From: Solirubrobacterales bacterium
GTDB lineage: Bacteria; Actinomycetota; Thermoleophilia; Solirubrobacterales; Solirubrobacteraceae
Direction: 5' to 3'
Assembly (NCBI GenBank): GCA_003157595.1
Contig: PMKB01000075.1
Span: 1,338 to 22,132, forward strand
Length of the DNA stretch: 20,795 nt
Shown one piece after another: positions 2,370 through 20,793 of the stretch. The position numbers and the translations under genes are program-made. Below the pieces are notes generated by a model that was given only the letters and a program-made list of their open reading frames with translations, did no database searches and was not told the origin of the DNA. How positions within the stretch are numbered: the stretch's first letter is position 1; each line of letters starts with the position of its first letter.

Positions 2370-2430
2370 CGCGTGCGGGGCGCCCTGCGCGGGGATCGTT
2401 ACGCGCGGGCGCCCTGCGCGGCGATCGTTA
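2370..2430. repeat. Imperfect tandem repeat spanning the aceA stop codon
   Basis: Two adjacent units, 2370-2401 (32 bases) and 2402-2430 (29 bases), share the core GCGCCCTGCGCGG-GATCGTTA on the plus strand. A shorter, decayed third copy (ccgcggggatcat) precedes them at about 2356-2369. Read on the aceA strand, each unit starts with TAACGATC, so the aceA stop codon is the first base triplet of the first unit. Each unit holds a GGGCGCCC palindrome that could form a hairpin just after aceA. It may act as a terminator or RNA-stabilising element; this is inference. Confidence 0.6.
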
Positions 2431-3675
2431 TGCGCGAGACCGCTGCACCTCGAACTGCTCCTCCTCGGTTGATCCGCGAAGCGCCATTGTCGAGGCCGTC
2501 CCGCCGGTGACCGTTTCCAGCACCTGGTCGAAGTAGCCGGAGCCGACCTCGCGCTGATGGCGCGTGGCGGTGTAGCCGTCGCTCTCGAGCGCGAACTCGC
2601 TCTCCTGCAATTCGACGTAGGCGCTCATTGCGCGCGTCGCGTAGCCGCGCGCAAGCTCGAACATCGAGGCGTTCAGGGCGTGGAAGCCGGCGAGCGTGAC
2701 GAACTGGAAGCGGTAGCCGAGGCTCGCGAGATCGCTCTGGAAGGTGGCGATCTGGCTTTCTGTGAGGTGCCGGCTCCAGTTGAACGACGGTGAGCAGTTG
2801 TAGGCGAGCAGCTTGCCCGGGAACGCAGCATGGATCTCCGCTGCGAAAGCCGCCGACTGCTCGAGGTCCGGGGTGGATGTCTCGAACCACAGCAGGTCGG
2901 CGTAGGGGGCGTAGGCGAGGCCGCGGGCGGTTGCGGCCTCGATCCCCTCGTTGACGCGGAAGTAGCCCTCCGGGGTGCGCTCACCGGTCGTGAACGCCCG
3001 GTCTGTCTCGTCGATGTCGCTGGTCAGCAGCGTCGCCGACAGAGCGTCGGTCCGCGCGATCAGCAGCGTCGGCACGTCCAGAACGTCAGCCGCCAGGCGG
3101 GCGGCGATCAGCGTGCGCACGAACTGCGAGCTGGGCACGAGCACCTTGCCGCCGAGGTGACCGCACTTCTTCTCCGAGGAGAGCTGGTCCTCGAAGTGGA
3201 CCGCGGCGGCCCCCGCCTCGATGAACGCTTTCATCAGCTCGAACGCGTTCAATGGCCCGCCAAAGCCGGCCTCGGCGTCGGCGACGATCGGGGCGAGCCA
3301 GTCGATCGAGTGCTCACCCTCGGCGTGGGCGATCTGGTCGGCGCGCAGCAGCGCGTTGTTGAGCCGCTTGACCAGCGTCGGTGCGCTCGTCGCGGGGTAG
3401 AGGCTCTGATCGGGGTAGGTCTGGCCCGCGAGATTCGCGTCGGCAGCGACCTGCCAGCCAGACAGGTAGATCGCCTTCAGACCGGCCTTGACCATCTGCA
3501 CCGCCTGTCCGCCCGTCACCGCGCCCAGTGCCGCCACCCAGGGTTCCTCGGCGAGCTGCGCACGCAAACGCTCGGCCCCACGTCGGGCCAGCGTGTGCTC
3601 GACGCTCACCGAGCCGCGCAGTCGCTCGACGTCCTCGTCGGAGTAGGGGCGCTCGATGGTGAGTTCGGGAGTCAT
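2428..3675 (-). CDS. aceA: Isocitrate lyase
   Basis: Splits isocitrate into glyoxylate and succinate, the first step of the glyoxylate shunt used for growth on acetate and fatty acids; cytosolic and normally tetrameric. The 415-residue length is slightly below the usual ~430. Diagnostic motifs are [20 protein letters not shown] (residues 72-91), the metal-binding region [10 protein letters not shown] (Asp133) and the family signature [11 protein letters not shown] with catalytic Cys171. YNCSPSFNW near residue 315 and [13 protein letters not shown] further on are also conserved. The ATG at 3675 is preceded by a clear AAGGAG Shine-Dalgarno at 3685-3690, nine bases away. A consensus-like promoter and a TTGGATCCAA palindrome lie just upstream, and a GntR/FCD regulator is transcribed divergently, so local repression is likely. 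No malate synthase gene is visible in the window. A methylisocitrate lyase is less likely given the length and KKCGH signature. Confidence 0.97.
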
Positions 3676-3840: not shown

Positions 3841-4602
3841 GTGCCGGTCCTTTCGACAAAGGCTGACGAGGTCGCCAGAACGCTTGAGGACGAGATCGTT
3901 TCCGGCGCCATCCCGCAGGGCCAGGTTCTGCGGCAGGAGCACGTGTGCGACCGCTTCGGCGTCAGCCGCACGCCGGTTCGCGAGGCGCTCCAGCGCCTGG
4001 AGGCGCTCGGTCTGGTCACGGCGCTGCCGAATCGAGGGGCGCGGGTGCGCTCGATCTCCTCCGCCGAGCTGCGCGAGGCCTTCCTCATCCGCGCCGAGCT
4101 CGAGGGTCTCGCGACGGCTCACGCGGCGCCGCGCATGACGCCAGAGGATCTCGCGCGTCTGGACGCCGCCGAGGAGCGGTTCGCCGAGCTGACTCTCGAG
4201 CTGCGCGCGCAGATGCGCAGTGGCGACCTGCGCAACTCGTCACTGGTAGTCGTCTGGATGGCTGCCAATCACGCCTTCCACGATGTGATCTACGAAATCG
4301 CGGCGCTGCCGCGCGTGGAGCAGCTTGCCAAGAGCGCGCGACGCACATTCATCGGCGAGCACGTCTGGAGCGCTCGCGGCGAGCTCGACGAGCTGTTCGC
4401 CCGTAACGACCTCCAACACCGGGCGATCCGCGAAGCACTCGCCGCAGGCAGCCCGGACGGTGCCCGGACACTCGCCCGCGAACACGTGCTTTCGTCGGGC
4501 CGGCTGATGGAGGCGGCGCTCGAGGTGGCGGCCGCGAGGACACGCCCGCCGGACTGGCTCTCGGGCGGGCCTGAGCGCGCGGATTGGGGAGCAGCCGGGT
4601 AG
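3841..4602 (+). CDS. GntR-family transcriptional regulator, FCD (FadR) subfamily
   Basis: A 253-residue DNA-binding regulator. Residues ~8-73 form the winged helix-turn-helix (LRQEHVCDRFGVSRTPVREAL, then LVTALPNRGARV as the wing). Residues ~78-220 form the all-helical FCD ligand domain, with its typical metal/ligand histidines visible in NHAFHDVIY (His147), GEHVW (His174), QHRAIREAL (His193) and REHV (His215). FCD proteins usually bind small organic acids. The gene is divergent from aceA with 165 bases between the starts and two shared palindromes, so it likely senses an intermediate of acetate, glyoxylate or another organic acid and controls aceA and itself. The GTG at 3841 lacks a Shine-Dalgarno; a TATCGT at 3829-3834 would place the transcript start at or near this GTG, so the mRNA may be leaderless. 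The tail (after ~230) is Pro/Gly/Ala-rich and probably disordered. Confidence 0.92.
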   Translation: MPVLSTKADEVARTLEDEIVSGAIPQGQVLRQEHVCDRFGVSRTPVREALQRLEALGLVTALPNRGARVRSISSAELREAFLIRAELEGLATAHAAPRMTPEDLARLDAAEERFAELTLELRAQMRSGDLRNSSLVVVWMAANHAFHDVIYEIAALPRVEQLAKSARRTFIGEHVWSARGELDELFARNDLQHRAIREALAAGSPDGARTLAREHVLSSGRLMEAALEVAAARTRPPDWLSGGPERADWGAAG

Positions 4603-4747: not shown

Positions 4748-5419
4748 GTGGCCTCGCGTGCCAATTCTTCCCGTGCAGGCGCGGCTCCGGCGCTCGATCG
4801 TCTTCGCCGGCTGCCGCGGGGCATGTTCGCTGGCGGCACCGCCGGCAACGAGCAGCTCACCGCTGCGACCGGGATCGTGCTGCTCGTGCTGCTCGCCGCG
4901 CTGGGTGTGAGCATCCTGCGCATCGGCGCGCTGCTGAACGAGCACATGTTCCTCGGCATGTTGCTGATTGGACCCGTCGCGCTGAAGCTGGCAAGCACCG
5001 GCTATCGCTTCGCCCGCTACTACACCGCAAGCCCCCGCTACCGGGCCAAGGGACCGCCTCCGACAGCGATGCGCTTGATGGCGCCGATCGTGGTGATCTC
5101 GACGGTCGTCGTCTTCGCCAGCGGCGTCGCGCTGCTGTTCGTAGGGCCCGGATCGCGCGCCACGTTGCTGCCTGTGCACAAGATCAGCTTCATCATCTGG
5201 CTCGTCTTCACGGGCCTGCACGTGCTCGCCCATCTCGGCGATCTGGTAGGCGCCACACGACGTGATCGCAGCCCTGAACGCCCGTGGGATGACCGCGGCG
5301 CGGGCCGCGGAGCGAGAGCGCTTTCGCTTGCCGGCGCACTCGTCGGCGGCCTTGTGCTCGCGCTGCTGGTGGAGTCGCAGTTCGGCGCGTGGGCGCACGT
5401 CCACAGACACCTGCACTGA
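4748..5419 (+). CDS. Multi-pass membrane protein with heme-ligand-like histidines (putative b-type cytochrome)
   Basis: From GTG 4748 the protein has 223 residues and about five hydrophobic helices (~38-60, 65-83, 111-132, 143-163, 193-210). Histidines lie at or inside helix ends: His66 (NEHMFLGMLLIG), His144 (PVHKISFIIW), His158 and His162 (GLHVLAHL). This resembles small cytochrome b561-like or ferric-reductase-like heme proteins and fits the redox genes downstream. The conserved-looking stretches MFAGGTAGNEQLTAATG, STGYRFARYY and KGPPPT remind me of uncharacterised actinobacterial membrane proteins. The start is uncertain: GTG 4688, GTG 4748 and ATG 4823 are all in frame and none has a clear Shine-Dalgarno. 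The C-terminus is His-rich (HVHRHLH). It is separated by 197 bases from the next gene, so it may be a separate transcript of the same module. Heme binding is inferred. Confidence 0.72.
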   Translation: MASRANSSRAGAAPALDRLRRLPRGMFAGGTAGNEQLTAATGIVLLVLLAALGVSILRIGALLNEHMFLGMLLIGPVALKLASTGYRFARYYTASPRYRAKGPPPTAMRLMAPIVVISTVVVFASGVALLFVGPGSRATLLPVHKISFIIWLVFTGLHVLAHLGDLVGATRRDRSPERPWDDRGAGRGARALSLAGALVGGLVLALLVESQFGAWAHVHRHLH

Positions 5420-5473
5420 ACCGAAGCGCGCGTGCGGCTAACGGCCGCCGGTTCGCGGGCGCCTCAGGTTGGC

Positions 5474-5519
5474 ATGAGCAGACTCTCACCACGAGGGCCT
5501 GCTTATGAGCGGCTTCTCA
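5474..5519. promoter_or_regulatory. Paired ATGAG-n-CTCA sites upstream of the redox operon
   Basis: ATGAGCAGACTCTCA (5474-5488) and ATGAGCGGCTTCTCA (5505-5519) match at 12 of 15 positions and begin exactly 31 bases apart, about three helical turns. Each is itself an inverted repeat (ATGAG/CTCA, the second extending to ATGAG/CTCAT). Placement about 100 bases ahead of the operon start suggests a binding site for a dimeric regulator. No regulator gene is adjacent. Confidence 0.45.
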
Positions 5520-5616
5520 TGCCCGGCTTAGCAGGATTTGGGATTGCGACCCGACAATCGAACGCGATGGCATTCATCTCCCGACAAGGCGCAGGTTGCT
5601 TTCGAGGACTGCTCCG

Positions 5617-6156
5617 ATGAGCGGACGCCTGCCTCGCGTACCGGAGCGGAGCCCAGCGGAGCTTGCAACGCGTCGGGCAATCCGGGCTCGTGACGCCGGA
5701 CTGCGGCGGATCGCGGCGATCACGCGCGGGATGGTCGCGGTCGTGGTCGCGTTCTCCGGCGCGCTGGCGGTGCTGGCTGCCAGCGGCTTTCACGGTCATA
5801 CGCTCGCGAGTCGGACACAGCAGCCGCGCAGCGCCCAGCCGGCGCTGACTCCCTCGACGGCGCGCACCAGATCCCGTCGTGGATCGTCGGTTCGCCAGAC
5901 GACGGCGGCACGCTCCGCGCGGGCCGCCGCCGCGTCGTCCGCAGGCGCGTCGACGCAAACGGCGCCGTCGCAGACAACGCAGACCCAGACGCCGGTACAG
6001 ACCACGCCGGTACAGACTCAGACCCAGACGACTCAGACCCAGACGACGCCGGCGCAGTCCGCGCCGGCCGCCAGCTCGTCGCCCGGCCTCGCGCAGCCGA
6101 GCCAAGCACCCGTTCAGACACCTGCCGCCCCGGTCGTCGTGTCGGGGGCATCGTGA
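5617..6156 (+). CDS. Single-TM protein with Thr/Gln/Pro-rich exported tail, first gene of the redox operon
   Basis: 179 residues from ATG 5617, which has GAGGA nine bases upstream (5603-5607); an in-frame TTG at 5596 is less likely. Residues 1-38 are basic and cytoplasmic, ~39-57 form one hydrophobic helix (MVAVVVAFSGALAVLAASG), and the remaining ~120 residues are low complexity (Ser, Thr, Ala, Gln, Pro) with QTQT and PVQTTP repeats at about residues 115-150. No catalytic residue or cofactor motif is visible. The topology suggests a membrane-anchored extracytoplasmic spacer or wall-spanning partner of the ferric-reductase-like protein. Its stop overlaps the next start (GTGA at 6153-6156), so the two are translationally coupled. 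The family is not recognised. Confidence 0.7.
   Translation: MSGRLPRVPERSPAELATRRAIRARDAGLRRIAAITRGMVAVVVAFSGALAVLAASGFHGHTLASRTQQPRSAQPALTPSTARTRSRRGSSVRQTTAARSARAAAASSAGASTQTAPSQTTQTQTPVQTTPVQTQTQTTQTQTTPAQSAPAASSSPGLAQPSQAPVQTPAAPVVVSGAS
5970..6056 (+). repeat. Low-complexity coding repeat (CAGAC / CAGACG units)
   Basis: Short direct repeats within the preceding gene: CAGACCCAGACG occurs three times and CCGGTACAGAC twice, encoding QTQT and PVQTT runs. Such stretches can vary in length by slippage or recombination. Confidence 0.6.
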
Positions 6157-7229
6157 CGGCGCTCGCGACCGCCGGGCCGAGCGCCCTGTGGTACCTCACG
6201 CGCGCCACCGGCGCGGTCACGCTCGTGCTGCTGACGGCGAGCGTCGCGCTGGGTGTCGCGAACGTCGGACGCCTGCGGAGTGCCCGCTGGCCCCGGTTCG
6301 TCGTCGAGGGATTGCACCGCAACGTCTCGCTGCTCGCGATAGCCGTTCTCGCAGTGCACATCTGCACGACGTTGCTCGACCCGTTCGCCTCGATCCACCT
6401 GCTCGACGCCGTCATCCCATTCGTCTCGACCTACCGGCCGTTGTGGCTCGGGTTGGGAGCGTTCGCGTCGGACCTGCTGATTGCCATCGCGCTCACGAGC
6501 ATGGTTCGGCGGCGCCTCGGGCACCGTGCGTGGCGCGCGACACACTGGTTCGCCTATGCCTGCTGGCCGATCGCGCTGCTGCACGCGGTTGGCACCGGCA
6601 GCGACATCAAGCAGCTCTGGATGCAGGCACTGCTCGCCGGTTGCATGATCGCCGTGATCGTTGCCATCTGGGCCCGGGCGGGCGTTGGCTGGCCGCAACG
6701 GCGCGGTCTGCGCGGCAGCGCGCTCGCTGTGTCGATCGCGCTCCCCGTGGCGCTTGTGGTCTGGCTCCCAAGCGGCCCGCTGGCGTCCAACTGGGCCAGC
6801 CGGGCGGGCACGCCGGCCGTGGCCGGCAGCGCCGGATCCACGGCGCAGGTGGCCAGCACGACGCAGCAGTCGATCTCGGCGTTCTCGGCCCGCGTGAACG
6901 GCAGCGTGAGTCAGCGCCAGACCTCGAGCGGGGGCGTCGAGGTGACCCTGTCGCTGGCCGTCGACAACCCGGCGCTCGGCACCGTGCACGTGCGAATCGA
7001 CGGTAACGCCGTGGCCGGCGGCGGAGTTCAGATGACGGCCAGCTCGGTGTCGATCGGCACGTCGTCGAGCCCGACGCTATTTGAGGGCGCGATCACATCG
7101 CTCGCCGGCACCCAGATTGCAGCGCGTGTGGCCGCGACAGACGGCCGCGCGCTCCAGCTCGGGTTCGCGCTCCGCGTCGACTCCGCCGCCGGCTCGGCGA
7201 GCGGCACCGTCCAGGTGACACCGGTCTGA
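6153..7229 (+). CDS. Ferric-reductase-like transmembrane protein with C-terminal exported domain
   Basis: 358 residues. Six predicted helices (~14-34, 54-75, 98-117, 130-147, 159-175, 187-204) form a ferric-reductase/NOX-like heme domain. The heme ligand pattern is clear: His55 and His69 (H-x13-H) in one helix and His131 and His144 (H-x12-H) in another, enough for two stacked b-type hemes. It lacks the FAD/NAD(P)H domain of canonical reductases. Residues ~210-358 instead form a Ser/Thr/Gly-rich, probably beta-strand domain likely outside the membrane. Electrons would therefore come from separate proteins, and the flavoprotein and ferredoxin genes immediately downstream are obvious candidates. 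The GTG start overlaps the previous stop by four bases, and its TGA overlaps the next ATG by one (7229). The acceptor is unknown: ferric iron, oxygen, quinone or an exported protein are possible. Confidence 0.88.
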   Translation: MTALATAGPSALWYLTRATGAVTLVLLTASVALGVANVGRLRSARWPRFVVEGLHRNVSLLAIAVLAVHICTTLLDPFASIHLLDAVIPFVSTYRPLWLGLGAFASDLLIAIALTSMVRRRLGHRAWRATHWFAYACWPIALLHAVGTGSDIKQLWMQALLAGCMIAVIVAIWARAGVGWPQRRGLRGSALAVSIALPVALVVWLPSGPLASNWASRAGTPAVAGSAGSTAQVASTTQQSISAFSARVNGSVSQRQTSSGGVEVTLSLAVDNPALGTVHVRIDGNAVAGGGVQMTASSVSIGTSSSPTLFEGAITSLAGTQIAARVAATDGRALQLGFALRVDSAAGSASGTVQVTPV

Positions 7230-8518
7230 TGGCGACGCTCGCGACAACCGTCGGGCTGCCGCGCCTGCTGAGCGCGCTCTCGGGTGGGGAGATGGTTGAC
7301 CTCGACCGCCACCTCGACGCCCATGGTCTGCTGCCCTCGGACCGCGAGCTCGACGCGAACGGGCTCCTCGATCTGGTCGAGCGCTCGGGCCTGCGCGGGC
7401 GCGGCGGCGCTGCGTTCCCGATGGCCACGAAGCTGGGCGCAGTGCGGGCTGCCCGCGGCCCGGCGATCGTGGTCGCCAACGGCTGTGAGAGCGAGCCGAT
7501 CAGTGCCAAGGATGCTCTGCTCCTGCACGAGCTTCCGCATCTCGTGCTTGACGGCGTCGAGCTCGCGGCGCGCGCGGTCGGCGCCGCTGAGGCGATCGTC
7601 GCCTTCGAAACGCCCAACACCGCTGCGCGCATGAGCCTGGAGAACGCACTGAGCGAGCGGCGTGCCGAACGGATCGACTCGACCCGCTTCTCACTGTTCG
7701 CCGCCGAAGAGCGGTTCCTCAGCGGCCAGGAGACAGCGCTGGTGTCGCAGATCGACGGCGGGCCGCCGAAACCCACCTTTGTCCCGCCGCGCCCCACCGA
7801 CCGCGGCGTAGGCCGTCGACCGACGCTCATCCAAAACGTCGAGACGCTCGCGAACCTGGCGCTGGTCGCGCGCTACGGCGCCGAGTGGTATCGCGAGCTC
7901 GGAACGGATGCGGAGACCGGGTCGAAGCTGGTCACACTGGCGGGAGCCGTCGAGAACCCGGGCGTGTATGAGATCGAATTCGGAACACCGCTCGGGGCAC
8001 TGTTTGCGGCCGCCGGCGGGTTGAGCAGCGAGCTCGCCGGCGTGCTCGTGGGCGGCTATTTTGGCTCGTGGCTGCCGGCGGCGGGAGTCGGCGCGCTCGA
8101 ACTCTCGAACGAGGCCCTCGGCCACCACGGAGCCGCGCTTGGTTGTGGCGCGGTCGTCGCTCTCCCGGCACGCTCGTGCCCGGTTGCCGAGACGGTGCGC
8201 GTCGCGATCTATCTGGCGACCGAAACCGCCGGCCAGTGTGGGCCGTGCGTTCATGGGACGGCGGCGATCGCCCGAACGCTGCACGGGGTCGCGGAGGGCA
8301 AGGCCTCGCCGACCGCGTTTGCCGACCTCAAACGCTGGGCCGAGGAGCTCCCCGGCCGCGGCGCCTGCCATCACCCGAACGGACTCGCCCATTTCGTCTC
8401 GACCGCGCTGCGGACCTTCAAGCCCCAGTTCGCCGATCACGCCCGCCACGGCCCGTGCGACGGCTGCGCTGCTGAACCGGTCCTCACGTTCCCGCAGCCG
8501 AGCCCGGCGCGCCCGTGA
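7229..8518 (+). CDS. NuoF-like NADH dehydrogenase (FMN / Fe-S) subunit
   Basis: 429 residues, homologous to the 51-kDa/NuoF subunit family. The FMN-binding glycine-rich motif GLRGRGGAAFP is at 54-64, NGCESEP at 84-90 takes the place of NADEGEP, SGQETALV (165-172) matches the GEETALI region, and QNVETLANL (202-210) matches the conserved NNVETLANV. An SLBB-like segment follows (~232-285). The Fe-S motif is unusual: AGQCGPCVHG has Cys337 and Cys340 but Ala334 where NuoF has its first cysteine. GRGAC gives Cys380, and a C-terminal GPCDGC adds Cys410 and Cys413. Expected role: take electrons from NAD(P)H through FMN and pass them to the ferredoxin encoded next. The gene shares bases with both neighbours (ATG/TGA at 7229, GTGA at 8515-8518). 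It is not part of a complete complex I, as no other nuo gene is present. Confidence 0.9.
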   Translation: MATLATTVGLPRLLSALSGGEMVDLDRHLDAHGLLPSDRELDANGLLDLVERSGLRGRGGAAFPMATKLGAVRAARGPAIVVANGCESEPISAKDALLLHELPHLVLDGVELAARAVGAAEAIVAFETPNTAARMSLENALSERRAERIDSTRFSLFAAEERFLSGQETALVSQIDGGPPKPTFVPPRPTDRGVGRRPTLIQNVETLANLALVARYGAEWYRELGTDAETGSKLVTLAGAVENPGVYEIEFGTPLGALFAAAGGLSSELAGVLVGGYFGSWLPAAGVGALELSNEALGHHGAALGCGAVVALPARSCPVAETVRVAIYLATETAGQCGPCVHGTAAIARTLHGVAEGKASPTAFADLKRWAEELPGRGACHHPNGLAHFVSTALRTFKPQFADHARHGPCDGCAAEPVLTFPQPSPARP

Positions 8519-8712
8519 CTCGTCTCCGTGTGAACCCGATCGGATGCGTGGGTCACGGCCTCTGCGCTGAGCTCCTGCCCGAGTGGATCGAGCTTGACGA
8601 GTGGGGCTACCCGATCGTCGATCGCGAGTCGCTCCCGGCCGGACTCGAGGCTCACGCGCGGCGCGCTGCCGACGCCTGTCCGACGCTCGCGCTACTGCTC
8701 CAACCCGACTGA
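8515..8712 (+). CDS. [3Fe-4S]-type small ferredoxin
   Basis: 65 residues starting with the GTG of the GTGA overlap at 8515. Cys11-x5-Cys17 (GCVGHGLC) and Cys55-Pro (ACPTLAL) are the ligand pattern of monocluster [3Fe-4S] ferredoxins, in which the second cysteine of the usual CxxCxxC motif is replaced (here by His14). The acidic middle (EWIELDEWGYPIVD) is typical of the fold. These ferredoxins often serve cytochrome P450s, but no P450 is nearby. The coupling to the NuoF-like gene suggests it shuttles electrons from that flavoprotein to the cytoplasmic face of the heme protein. It is the last gene of the operon; a strong hairpin follows at 8780. Confidence 0.9.
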   Translation: MTRLRVNPIGCVGHGLCAELLPEWIELDEWGYPIVDRESLPAGLEAHARRAADACPTLALLLQPD

Positions 8713-13628: not shown

Positions 13629-14582
13629 CTAGCTGTAGGACCCGTGAGCGTTGTTCAGCTGCGCGAGGCGAGCTGCCGGGGGTTGGCGGCCGAGTGAGCC
13701 GTGTGGTCGACGGTGATTGTAGAAGTCGATCCAGGCTGTGAGTGCGGCGTTGCGCTCGCGGCTGGTGTTGTAGATCGCGCCGTAGGCCCAGCCTCCGAGG
13801 AGTGTGCGGATGAATCGCTCGGCTTTGCCATTGGTGCGTGGCCGGTAAGGGCGTGTTCGTAGGTGTTTGAGTCCGAGTGCGCGGCAGGCGAGGGCATGCA
13901 CGCTCGAGACATAGGCGCTGCCGTTGTCGGTCATCAGCTGTTGCACGGTGATGCCGCGTGCGGCGTAGAACGCGATCGCTCGGCGTAGAAAGCCGACCGC
14001 GGTCACCGCCTTCTCGTCCTCGAGCACTTCAACGAACGCCAGGCGTGTCGCGTCGTCGATGCAGACATGCACGAACTCCCCGTCCTTCTTGCCCTGGTCG
14101 CGGCGATCGCGACGGCTCCCGGTAACGCGATGACCGGGACGGACGATCCGCCCAAGCTTCTTCACATCGATGTGAACGAGCTCGCCGGGACGCTCGCGCT
14201 GATAGCGGTTGGGTGGCTCAGGCGGCTCGAGTCGCGAGAGCTTGCCGAGCCCGATCCGGGTCAGGATCCCCGACACCGTCGACGCCGGCATCCCGAGCGC
14301 GAGCGCTATGTCTTGCCCGGTCAGGCGCAGCTTGCGCAACGCGGCGATCGCGCTGACGCGATCCTCGCTGGTGCGACCCGGAACCGTGTGTGGCGCCGAG
14401 GAGCGATCGAGGAGCCCCGCCTCTCCTTCGCCGCGATAACGGCAAACCCACTTCCAACACGTGCGCTCGCTCACGCCCGCGGCCTCGGCCGCGTCCGTGA
14501 GCGACCACTCCAACTCGACAACCCGACGCACCATCGTAAGGCGGCCCTTCGGGCCGAGAGCAGCGTTAGCGTGCAACTTCAT
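13629..14582 (-). CDS. IS481-family transposase
   Basis: 317 residues from ATG 14582, which has a strong GGAGG Shine-Dalgarno. Residues ~10-60 form a helix-turn-helix (SLTDAAEAAGVSERTCWKWVCRYRGEG), followed by a second HTH-like segment (~80-112) and an rve integrase domain. The DDE residues are Asp139 (HIDVKKLGRI), Asp219 (MTDNGSAY) and Glu255 (NGKAERFIRT). The C-terminal YNHRRPHGSLGRQPP motif is characteristic of IS481/IS3-type integrases. The frame is intact, so the enzyme could be active. The TAG stop lies in the flanking CTAG target sequence rather than inside the element's inverted repeat. Confidence 0.95.
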   Translation of the reverse strand: MKLHANAALGPKGRLTMVRRVVELEWSLTDAAEAAGVSERTCWKWVCRYRGEGEAGLLDRSSAPHTVPGRTSEDRVSAIAALRKLRLTGQDIALALGMPASTVSGILTRIGLGKLSRLEPPEPPNRYQRERPGELVHIDVKKLGRIVRPGHRVTGSRRDRRDQGKKDGEFVHVCIDDATRLAFVEVLEDEKAVTAVGFLRRAIAFYAARGITVQQLMTDNGSAYVSSVHALACRALGLKHLRTRPYRPRTNGKAERFIRTLLGGWAYGAIYNTSRERNAALTAWIDFYNHRRPHGSLGRQPPAARLAQLNNAHGSYS

Positions 14583-14666
14583 CCGGTGTCCTCCTTGGGA
14601 CTGAGGGCTTCGACACCACTCAGCCTCCAGGGAGGCCCGGATGAACAACGCTGTCAGGAACCACAC
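13633..14666 (-). mobile_element. IS481-family insertion sequence
   Basis: Terminal inverted repeats are visible: left 13634-13657 and right 14642-14665 begin TGT and agree at 18 of 24 positions, with a perfect AGCGTTGTTCA inner block. The element is flanked on both sides by CTAG (13629-13632 and 14667-14670), read as the target duplication; IS481 is known to prefer NCTAGN targets. Length is about 1.03 kb, usual for the family. Confidence 0.88.
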
Positions 14667-19107: not shown

Positions 19108-20793
19108 CGTGAGGCTGTCGCGGAAGCGGTTCGGGGCGGCCGGGCGGGATCGGGCGGGTTGGCGGTGGCGCGATGCCGCTGGGTGTCGTCCCGGCGGCTG
19201 GTGGCTTCTAGCCGCTGGCTGTGGCTAGCTGGTGGCTGTGGAGCTTGGTGAGGTTGTGGGTCATCAGGATTAATCGCCACTCAGTGCGCACGGCGGATCG
19301 TCCTCGTCGGTGGAAGCGTTCGAACCTGCGGTTGTGTTTGGTGTGCCCGAAGACGGGCTCGACGGTCTGTTTGCGCTTGCGGTAGAGCTCTTGGCCGAGC
19401 TCGGTTGCGAGGACGGCTCGCATCCAGTCGTAGCGGCCACCGACCCAGCCGGGCCTGGGACCGTCGCGTTTGTTCGAGTCCGGTGCGACCAGGACCTCGA
19501 TTCCGTGTGCGCCGGTGACTTGGTCCATGTGCTGCTCGTTCCAGAACCCCGCGTCGGCGACCGCGACCCGGGGCTTCTCGCTGACGCCGGCGTTGTCGAG
19601 CTCGCGCAGCGTGGCCTCGACCATCGGGCCGAGATGGGAGAAATCACCGGTCTCCAGCGTGATCTCCGCCGCGAGCGCGATGCCGTTCTCGTTGACGGCG
19701 GCCTGGGCGTTGTAGCCCTGGAGGTAGTGGCGGAACCCCTTCATCAGCCGTGAGTCCGGATCGGTCAGGTTGACCTCGCCGCCCGGGCTCTCGGGCGGCC
19801 GGTAGGAATTCGGCGGCGCGCCGAAGCGACGGCCGTTCTTCATCCGTCCGGTCGTTCGGTAGTGCTCGTAGGCGTCGTTGCCTCGGCGTCTGGCGTCGAG
19901 CTCGTCCTCCAACCGCTGCCCGGCCTCAAGCAGCCGCTCACCGCGCCCCCGGGGAATCGGCGCCGCCGACGCCCACCGGTCACGCTCCAAGTGGTGCCCA
20001 GCTTCACGCCACCAGCCCTCGCGGCCCTGGCCGCGAGCGACGATCTGCTCGGTGTCGAACTCGTGAGCGCTCTCGCGACACTCGCTCGCCTTGCTGACGC
20101 TGTCCTCGTCGCGCTGACGCGCGAGCTCTCGCTTCAACCACGCACGCCGGCCCTCCGGCGTTGACAGCTCCTCGGGCAGCTCATCGCCCCGCCGCTCGCC
20201 ATAGAGCTCGTCCTCGGCCGCATCCACAGCCTTGGCCTCCCCGAGGATCTCCCGTGCGATCCGGTCATAGTCGATGTTCTGGTCCCGGTTGGCGTTCGCG
20301 AGCATCTTCGTGCCGTCGATCGCGACGACCTTGGACTCGACGAGTCCCGCTCGCGCGCACAGCCGCAACACCGACGCGAACAGATCAGCCAACGGCCGCT
20401 CATGGCGAACAAGGAAACGAGCGATCGTCGCGTGGTCAGGCACCACGTTCGCCGTGACCACCCGGTAGGCAACATCATCACGGCAATGGCGCTCGATCCC
20501 GCGCGCCGAGCGCTCGTTCGTCGCATACGCGTAGAGCACCAACCCGACCATCATCGCCGGGTCATACGCCGCGCGGCCATGCCCGTCAGCTCGATAGGCG
20601 CCATAGAACGCCGACAACCCAAGCGTCTTCACGCTGTCCAACAAGAACCACGCGAAGTGATCCGCCGGCAGCCAATCCCGCAGGCTCGGCGGCAACAACA
20701 ACTCCTGATCGTGATCGCAACGCAAAAAGTTCTGGGGCATCCCAGAAGTCTCTTAAACCCACCAGACAGCACCCTTTATGCGACAGCCTCACG
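19108..20793 (-). mobile_element. IS1182-family insertion sequence, apparently complete
   Basis: CGTGAGGCTGTCGC at 19108-19121 is matched by its exact reverse complement at 20780-20793, and similarity continues inward with mismatches (about 17 of the next-inclusive 21 positions). These terminal inverted repeats enclose one transposase gene, giving an element of about 1.69 kb. Because the right flank leaves only two bases in the window, a target duplication cannot be assessed. Confidence 0.85.
19208..20740 (-). CDS. IS1182-family DDE transposase
   Basis: 510 residues, intact. The N-terminal domain (~20-120) is DUF772-like (YDPAMMVGLVLYAYATNERSARGIE, then VPDHATIARF), which is typical of IS1182/IS5-type transposases. 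The DDE-type catalytic residues are Asp142 (VVAIDGTKMLANANR), Asp396 (VAVADAGFWNE) and Glu461 (TVEPVFGHTKHNRRFERF). A long charged insertion (~165-290), rich in Arg/Glu, sits between the first and second acidic residues, as usual for IS1182. The ATG at 20740 lies 53 bases inside the right inverted repeat. The C-terminus MTHNLTKLHSHQ is also family-typical. Confidence 0.95.
   Translation of the reverse strand: MPQNFLRCDHDQELLLPPSLRDWLPADHFAWFLLDSVKTLGLSAFYGAYRADGHGRAAYDPAMMVGLVLYAYATNERSARGIERHCRDDVAYRVVTANVVPDHATIARFLVRHERPLADLFASVLRLCARAGLVESKVVAIDGTKMLANANRDQNIDYDRIAREILGEAKAVDAAEDELYGERRGDELPEELSTPEGRRAWLKRELARQRDEDSVSKASECRESAHEFDTEQIVARGQGREGWWREAGHHLERDRWASAAPIPRGRGERLLEAGQRLEDELDARRRGNDAYEHYRTTGRMKNGRRFGAPPNSYRPPESPGGEVNLTDPDSRLMKGFRHYLQGYNAQAAVNENGIALAAEITLETGDFSHLGPMVEATLRELDNAGVSEKPRVAVADAGFWNEQHMDQVTGAHGIEVLVAPDSNKRDGPRPGWVGGRYDWMRAVLATELGQELYRKRKQTVEPVFGHTKHNRRFERFHRRGRSAVRTEWRLILMTHNLTKLHSHQLATASG

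Follow-up and report, generated by a model that had tools for sequence, protein, structure and literature searches.

A C-terminal Ser-Gly-Ala-Ser tag as a candidate flavin-attachment site in a ferric-reductase-like/NuoF-like membrane module of a Solirubrobacterales bacterium

The window analyzed here is a stretch of 20,795 nucleotides from a Solirubrobacterales bacterium (GenBank assembly GCA_003157595.1, contig PMKB01000075.1; contig C96 of the genome in our numbering). The assembly amounts to 2.95 Mb in 358 contigs and is 73% complete. Downstream of a gene for a GntR/FCD regulator, the window holds five co-directional genes for membrane and redox proteins, one of which encodes a protein with a single transmembrane (TM) segment and a conserved C-terminal tag. 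We think it likely that these genes specify an MsrQ-like/NuoF transmembrane relay and that the terminal carrier of this relay is a new sort of flavoprotein, in which flavin mononucleotide (FMN) would be joined to the end of the single-TM protein by the FMN transferase ApbE. The features of the module, in positions of the window, are as follows.

4823-5419, forward strand: b561-like protein with four TM segments (in-frame alternative starts at 4748 and 4688)
5617-6156, forward strand: single-TM protein of 179 amino acids, the proposed flavin-tail carrier (from translation and hydropathy)
6142-6153, forward strand: codons of the C-terminal tag Ser-Gly-Ala-Ser, whose last Ser is the proposed FMN site (from the sequence and from tests in relatives)
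6153-7229, forward strand: ferric-reductase-like (FRD), MsrQ-like membrane protein with two predicted hemes (PF01794, four conserved His)
6882-7223, forward strand: C-terminal eight-stranded beta-barrel of the FRD, residues 244-357 (predicted structure)
7229-8518, forward strand: NuoF-like flavin/iron-sulfur (Fe-S) protein, presumably NAD(P)H-oxidizing (PF01512, PF10531, PF10589)
8515-8712, forward strand: small ferredoxin of 65 residues (PF13459, PF13370)

The genes for the single-TM protein and the FRD overlap by 4 bases, those for the FRD and the NuoF-like protein by 1 base, and those for the NuoF-like protein and the ferredoxin by 4 bases. The FRD matches the Ferric_reduct profile at 28.9 bits (cut-off 28), and its His55, His69, His131 and His144 are identical in 53/53 aligned homologues (55 were gathered, and a length filter removed 2). 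Its AlphaFold model (overall mean predicted local distance difference test score 74) has helices at residues 48-79 and 124-147, the directions of which suggest His55/131 and His69/144 as the heme pairs. Fold matches of residues 6-156 to G-protein-coupled receptors were set aside as a common helical arrangement. No Pfam match to the flavin adenine dinucleotide/NAD domain of the classical ferric reductases and NOX proteins was found on the FRD; its C-terminus is predicted to be a small beta-barrel, which resembles in fold the barrels of Diels-Alderase and pyocyanin demethylase. The NuoF-like protein shows Complex1_51K, SLBB and NADH_4Fe-4S matches, the last (PF10589) at 60.7 bits with a cut-off of 23.5, and reaches 218 bits with the complex I NuoF equivalog model of NCBIfam (TIGR01959), under the cut-off of 558.65. 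The ferredoxin matches Fer4_15 and Fer4_13 and has the pattern C-x2-H-x2-C...C-P, which we take by precedent to mean the [3Fe-4S] type; C11, H14 and C17 are kept in 39/39 homologues and C55 in 38/39. The b561-like protein has only a sub-threshold match, to Ni_hydr_CYTB (16.1 bits, cut-off 30.1). Counted from the start at 4823, its H119 and H133 recur in 21/21 relatives, H41 in 20/21 and H137 in 18/21. A first-pass annotation had described five genes with overlaps of 1-4 bases, a bis-heme FRD (ligands His55/His69 and His131/His144) devoid of its own flavin domain, NuoF-like and ferredoxin partners, and a second, upstream membrane protein with heme-ligand-like histidines. The coordinates, the conserved ligands of all three proteins concerned and the Pfam matches above cut-off bear this description out.

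The gene order recurs beyond the window. Among 39 loci picked because their FRD resembles that of the window, the FRD is followed by NuoF as the next recognized gene in 35, and the ferredoxin then follows in 33; one of the four NuoF misses (L071) owes to a contig end that cuts its NuoF. A b561-like relative is present in 18/39 of these stretches, at any position and on either strand, and the complete order of b561-like gene, tag protein, ApbE, FRD, NuoF and ferredoxin is seen repeatedly. The module is thus not peculiar to the window and is widespread in the class of the source organism (Thermoleophilia in the GTDB lineage), to which "class" refers throughout. Outside it, FRD and NuoF stand beside a tag gene and ApbE in 5 of 20 hand-picked loci, 4 of them with ferredoxin. 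The adjacency that the first-pass annotation had expected in other genomes is therefore not rare. Its further proposal, in which separately encoded donor subunits feed electrons of NAD(P)H to an acceptor on the extracytoplasmic side, fits the conserved order and a published class of NuoF-containing clusters; where it fell short was the single-TM protein, to which it gave no role.

That protein has an Arg-rich N-terminus, a TM segment at about residues 40-58 and a low-complexity tail of 121 residues, and it matches no Pfam family above cut-off. It ends in -PVVVSGAS, and its paralog in the same genome (locus L002) ends in -PVVVSGGS. ApbE is reported to attach FMN to the last Ser/Thr of the motif D-x-x-[ST]-G-A-[ST], with minor effects only when the Asp is changed to Ala, and engineered flavin tags are reported to be most effective at N- or C-termini (accessible text of PMC12052999). 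SGAS of the window fits the core of this target, [ST]GA[ST], exactly. All 14 homologues retrieved by a search with the N-terminus only end in -SGGS, and a second such search returned a family in which 106/107 members (query included) end in [TS]-[RKH]-[TS]-S. The linkers after the TM segment are rich in Ala, Ser, Pro, Gly and Thr, and their length in 84 proteins varies from 3 to 181 residues (median 85). The predicted topology is N-in/C-out, with a net charge of +4.3 before the TM segment and +0.8 after it; the charge is larger before it in 76/84.

The link between the tag and ApbE was examined in the open reading frame (ORF) directly upstream of apbE, which was picked by a hydrophobic segment and third-base GC (GC3), the C-terminus not being considered. 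The class gave 103 ApbE rows from 100 stretches (a split ApbE, L034, is counted twice, and L069 and L172 have two ApbEs each); the stretches were selected from FRD and ApbE matches and not randomly, they have common ancestry, and some of them come from the same genome. A membrane-anchored upstream ORF was picked in 93/103 rows, and 79/93 picks end in [ST]xx[ST]. For background, 371 further long ORFs from the fetched loci gave 5. In eight further picks the motif lies within 5 residues of the end: SGGT with two more residues in L106, TSGS with three in L107, TxTS with four or five in L095, L169, L171, L172 and L173, and one chance match in L090, where the upstream gene is an FRD. Six picks are without the motif.

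The misses were read row by row with the data already in view. Two of the motif-free picks conceal a tag in another ORF or frame (SRSS on an ORF under the hydropathy limit in L091, SGSS in another frame in L165); in L083 the frame that holds the TM segment terminates after VVTLPR while another frame ends in TRTS, an apparent frameshift, and in L003 the b561-like gene takes the upstream place. Ten rows had no passing ORF. L017 and L058 have an SGGS-ending ORF slightly below the GC3 limit, the ORF of L166 ends in TRSS and has a hydropathy of 1.2, and in L181 (TRAS end) and L177 (TRSS end) the stretch begins within the gene. No tag was seen in L098, L111, L102, L114 and L072, the last two being without any candidate ORF. 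Outside the class, 51 rows came from 30 best-ApbE-match stretches and 20 hand-picked among middling matches. In 35/51 no ORF passed; the 16 picks comprise 9 with a terminal motif, 5 with a motif near the end (for example -SGGSN and -SGSHP) and two without (L146, L147). One of the terminal picks (L132) runs 73 bases into ApbE and is probably no gene; a near-end pick in L149 is likewise spurious, its other ORF ending in SRAS.

An origin of SGGS in a Shine-Dalgarno sequence or in the gene overlap was considered and rejected: of the last codon, an ATGA/GTGA overlap determines no more than the third base. The SG-type tags use all four Gly codons and the Ser codons TCG, TCC, TCA, AGC and AGT, and the 4-base overlap with the start of the ApbE frame is absent in 18/50 of them. 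Because the codons vary and the overlap is often lacking, the constraint on the tag is, as far as codon usage tells, one at the protein level. The set for this comparison was chosen by motif, so no weight is placed on its table of positions. The tag also occurs on the heme protein. Three FRDs (L070:876-1892, L071:2423-3181 and L071:3303-4316, L071 having three FRDs in tandem) carry a low-complexity tail of their own with a terminal -ATGGS or -ATGAS, and one of them holds PVVVSGGS within its low-complexity stretch; we read these as fusions of the predicted electron donor and carrier.

Two further kinds of protein were noted by eye near the tag protein or apbE. In clusters that have FRD and ApbE but no NuoF, the tag protein is preceded by another single-TM protein, whose Gly/Asp-rich tail ends in -DD in most cases; among the loci listed, about a dozen (L081, L082, L083, L086, L104, L108 and others) have such a protein, some 240-660 bases upstream of ApbE. 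Directly upstream of apbE in L092, L093, L094, L103, L112, L168 and L174 are lipoprotein-like proteins with a small shared domain, which also end in SxxS (SGQS, SKQS, SDAS, SRHS, SRWS).

The genome has a paralogous cluster, L002:1-4093 (G000:C315), in the order tag protein, ApbE, FRD, NuoF and ferredoxin, whose FRD is 66% identical to that of the window. Its ApbE, a homologue of solved FMN transferases, is the only ApbE match found in the genome; none lies on the window's contig, and thus no apbE stands within five genes of the window FRD, as it does in the paralog. In a relative of the same genus (L035) apbE is likewise not next to the FRD and instead follows the b561-like gene directly. We therefore infer that the window set most likely uses ApbE in trans from the C315 cluster.

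The catalytic triad of ApbE is reported as Ser-His-Asp, with Asp285 the catalytic Asp of the Vibrio cholerae enzyme. Among 89 tag-linked ApbEs the His at the V. cholerae His257 position is kept in 89/89, and of the Thr-Ser pair in the S/T loop each place is conserved in 85/89 or more. Asp stands at the Asp285 place in 45/45 other ApbEs compared; the L002 enzyme has kept the His and the S/T loop and has Asn for the triad Asp. There are consistent changes around the active site as well: three residues of the 29 outside enzymes (Trp97, Tyr149 and Tyr217 in L002 numbering) are lost or mostly lost in the tag-linked ApbEs, and Trp221 is present in 88/89 of these where the outside enzymes have Phe or Tyr. 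A FastTree phylogeny, which leaves out rows with a near-end motif, gives three groups: the 89 tag-linked enzymes, 16 FMN_bind-linked enzymes (support 0.96) and 29 enzymes from outside the class (0.99). The last are 29 of the 30 best-scoring loci and are termed canonical without a check of their substrates. The replaced triad Asp also appears to mark the tag-linked ApbEs as a separate group.

Known ApbE substrates are scarce in the class. Among 399 class genomes, FRD matches were found in 200, ApbE in 222 and FMN_bind in 48, with ApbE present in 194/200 FRD genomes and in 48/48 FMN_bind genomes. No FMN_bind match was found in 174/222 ApbE genomes, an upper figure, as PF04205 misses some divergent members; FRD was matched in 162 of the 174. 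The L102 locus has what looks like a divergent FMN_bind lipoprotein, and its genome is outside the 48. In the source genome PF04205 gave 0 matches, in an assembly that is incomplete and with a profile that can miss divergent members. DUF3570 and, over cut-off, DUF2271, the two other substrate families in the survey of Meheust et al. 2021, were found in 0/239 class genomes, DUF2271 having weak matches below cut-off in 5/239. Of 20 FMN_bind loci from the class, 16 showed [ST]GAT internally, none of these 16 proteins with the tag at its C-terminus, and the other 4 did not match the motif pattern; a short L193 ORF ending in TITS matched the pattern and was not counted as an FMN_bind protein.

We judge it probable, from sequence comparisons, that the single-TM protein is a redox carrier tied to ApbE through a conserved [ST]xx[ST] tag, and the gene set as a whole probably moves electrons from the inside of the cell to the outside. 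As its family suggests, the NuoF-like protein would oxidize NAD(P)H, with FMN and Fe-S centers receiving the electrons, and the ferredoxin would pass them to the inner heme of the FRD. The two hemes expected at the conserved histidines would carry the electrons over the membrane. On the outer side they would reach an FMN that ApbE would have put on the C-terminal Ser of the single-TM protein; of this step, the conserved tag and its linkage to ApbE are observed. At the end of a flexible, anchored tail, this FMN could move back and forth between heme protein and acceptor. The electrons may be accepted by the b561-like partner, and through it by quinone, or by an oxidant outside the cell; this is the weakest step of the proposal.

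Several findings weigh against this reading. The tag departs from the reported target: many relatives have Arg, Lys or His in the Gly place of the motif (TRTS and SHAS, for example), VVVSGAS of the window is without an Asp three residues ahead of its first Ser/Thr, and ApbE is reported to favor Thr over Ser as acceptor (PMC12052999, accessible text). The 107 homologues of the second search are conserved through their last 15 residues, with Pro at -8 in 106, and their agreement is therefore in part a matter of ancestry; this family is weaker evidence than the loci whose linkers vary greatly in length and composition. Two class rows, L113 and L024 (the same place as L048), are true exceptions, in which the upstream gene has no tag. 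Among the matches listed, the motif ends 2/120 FRD homologues, no more than background, so tag-FRD fusions are rare. At the Asp285 place, 44 of the 89 tag-linked ApbEs have Glu, 41 have Asn and 4 have Asp, and with such an altered triad their activity could be altered or lost; the support for their group in the tree is only 0.625. Lastly, if ApbE starts within 60 bases upstream of the tag-gene stop, 82/97 tagged loci have room for 12 residues or fewer ahead of the ApbE domain, which makes a signal peptide unlikely. With the tail predicted outside, either modification would precede export or the topology differs from the prediction.

Some of these points would suit a tag that serves as a docking or assembly peptide, holding the single-TM protein to the ApbE-like or the heme protein, with the ApbE-like protein acting as a scaffold or modifying something else. 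We consider this unlikely. The replacement of the catalytic Asp in 85/89 enzymes and the motifs looser than [ST]GA[ST] in many relatives speak for it; it accords poorly with the retained triad His and S/T loop, with a hydroxyl residue exactly where ApbE attaches FMN, with the fusion of the tag to the heme protein in three FRDs and with a class that is mostly without the other known ApbE substrates searched for. The enzyme might also add a group other than FMN to the terminal Ser, such as adenosine monophosphate or another nucleotide phosphoester, and the consistent changes at positions 97, 149, 217 and 221, together with the changed triad, would be in keeping with this. A redox cofactor is the better fit to neighbors that are redox proteins, and we give this alternative the least credence of all. 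The same neighbors could form a conventional ferric reductase of the MsrQ-like kind, serving iron assimilation or reduction outside the cell, to which the single-TM protein would be a structural helper. Clusters of PF01794 and NuoF are indeed published, and certain PF01794 clusters are tied to a VIT1-like iron transporter (accessible text of PMC8238504). This explanation leaves the conserved tag, and an ApbE encoded between tag protein and heme protein, unaccounted for, and no iron transporter was found among the ten window proteins scanned; we hold it to be quite improbable. Between these possibilities we return to a covalent flavin, and lean toward the view that an Actinomycetota group of ApbEs with a rebuilt triad joins FMN to the C-terminal Ser of natural tags on disordered, anchored tails.

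Parts of the module resemble known systems. RNF has a NuoF/RnfC-like flavoprotein, a ferredoxin and an outward-facing single-TM flavin carrier. On the reading proposed here, the window module shares these with RNF/NQR, and differs in having heme membrane proteins in place of RnfA/D/E; none of RnfA, RnfD and RnfE, for which no dedicated search was made, is among the Pfam matches of the five module genes. According to the accessible text of Meheust et al. 2021 (PMC8238504), MsrQ-like flavinylation clusters are broadly conserved in Actinobacteria, 31 of them have a NuoF-like gene, and NAD(P)H is inferred as the donor for at least a subset. Like the window, they pair a PF01794 two-heme protein with a NuoF-like donor (PF10589), many with ApbE. 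Their carrier is an FMN-binding domain protein, whereas here it would be a disordered tail with a C-terminal tag, and the window has in addition a ferredoxin of 65 residues as a protein of its own and a gene for a b561-like protein, while its module is without an ApbE. Clusters with an FRD-like protein and NuoF are thus already published, and the new part is the Thr/Gln-rich tag protein.

With the ApbE substrates NqrC, RnfG, DUF2271 and DUF3570 this protein shares the fit of SGAS to [ST]GA[ST] and a family that adjoins ApbE; unlike them, it has no recognized folded domain, its motif is extreme C-terminal and without Asp, and its relatives have looser middle residues. FMN_red proteins whose C-terminal extension is unstructured and bears the motif have been shown experimentally to be flavinylated (mSystems 2024, PMC11334425, in the sections available). 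That extension serves a folded FMN_red flavin site, whereas the proposed carrier of the window has no recognized flavin-binding fold. The engineered flavin-tag (Tong et al. 2021, as presented in the accessible text of PMC12052999) is also a short C-terminal ApbE target peptide; it is artificial, while the tag of the window would be natural and fixed at or beside the last residue. In a search that left preprints and most subscription papers outside, we found no paper that links ApbE or flavinylation to a C-terminal serine, intrinsic disorder, Thermoleophilia or Solirubrobacter, and none that joins an FMN transferase, a ferric reductase-like transmembrane protein and a ferredoxin.

Other features of the window lie on both sides of the module. 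The right part has transposase-like ORFs, seen by eye on the minus strand, at 13629-14666 and 19208-20740. The genes ahead of the module are as follows.

2428-3675, reverse strand: isocitrate lyase, divergent from the GntR/FCD regulator
3841-4602: GntR/FCD regulator, preceding the module

Meheust et al. 2021 (PMC8238504, accessible text) report 670 genomes (4%) left with apbE and no known substrate, and note that there are substrates yet to be identified. Within one class, the C-terminal tag is a concrete and readily testable substrate candidate beside the ApbE of many FMN_bind-free genomes. If the proposal is true, many orphan apbE genomes would be explained, and the tag proteins would constitute a broad new class of ApbE substrates that have no folded flavin domain: a "flavin on a string" connecting a heme relay with acceptors beyond the membrane, and the simplest covalent flavoprotein known to us. 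It would also provide, for study, an ApbE variant whose catalytic triad is changed, together with a natural flavin-tag system, and with them a new view of how electrons pass across the envelope of these actinobacteria.

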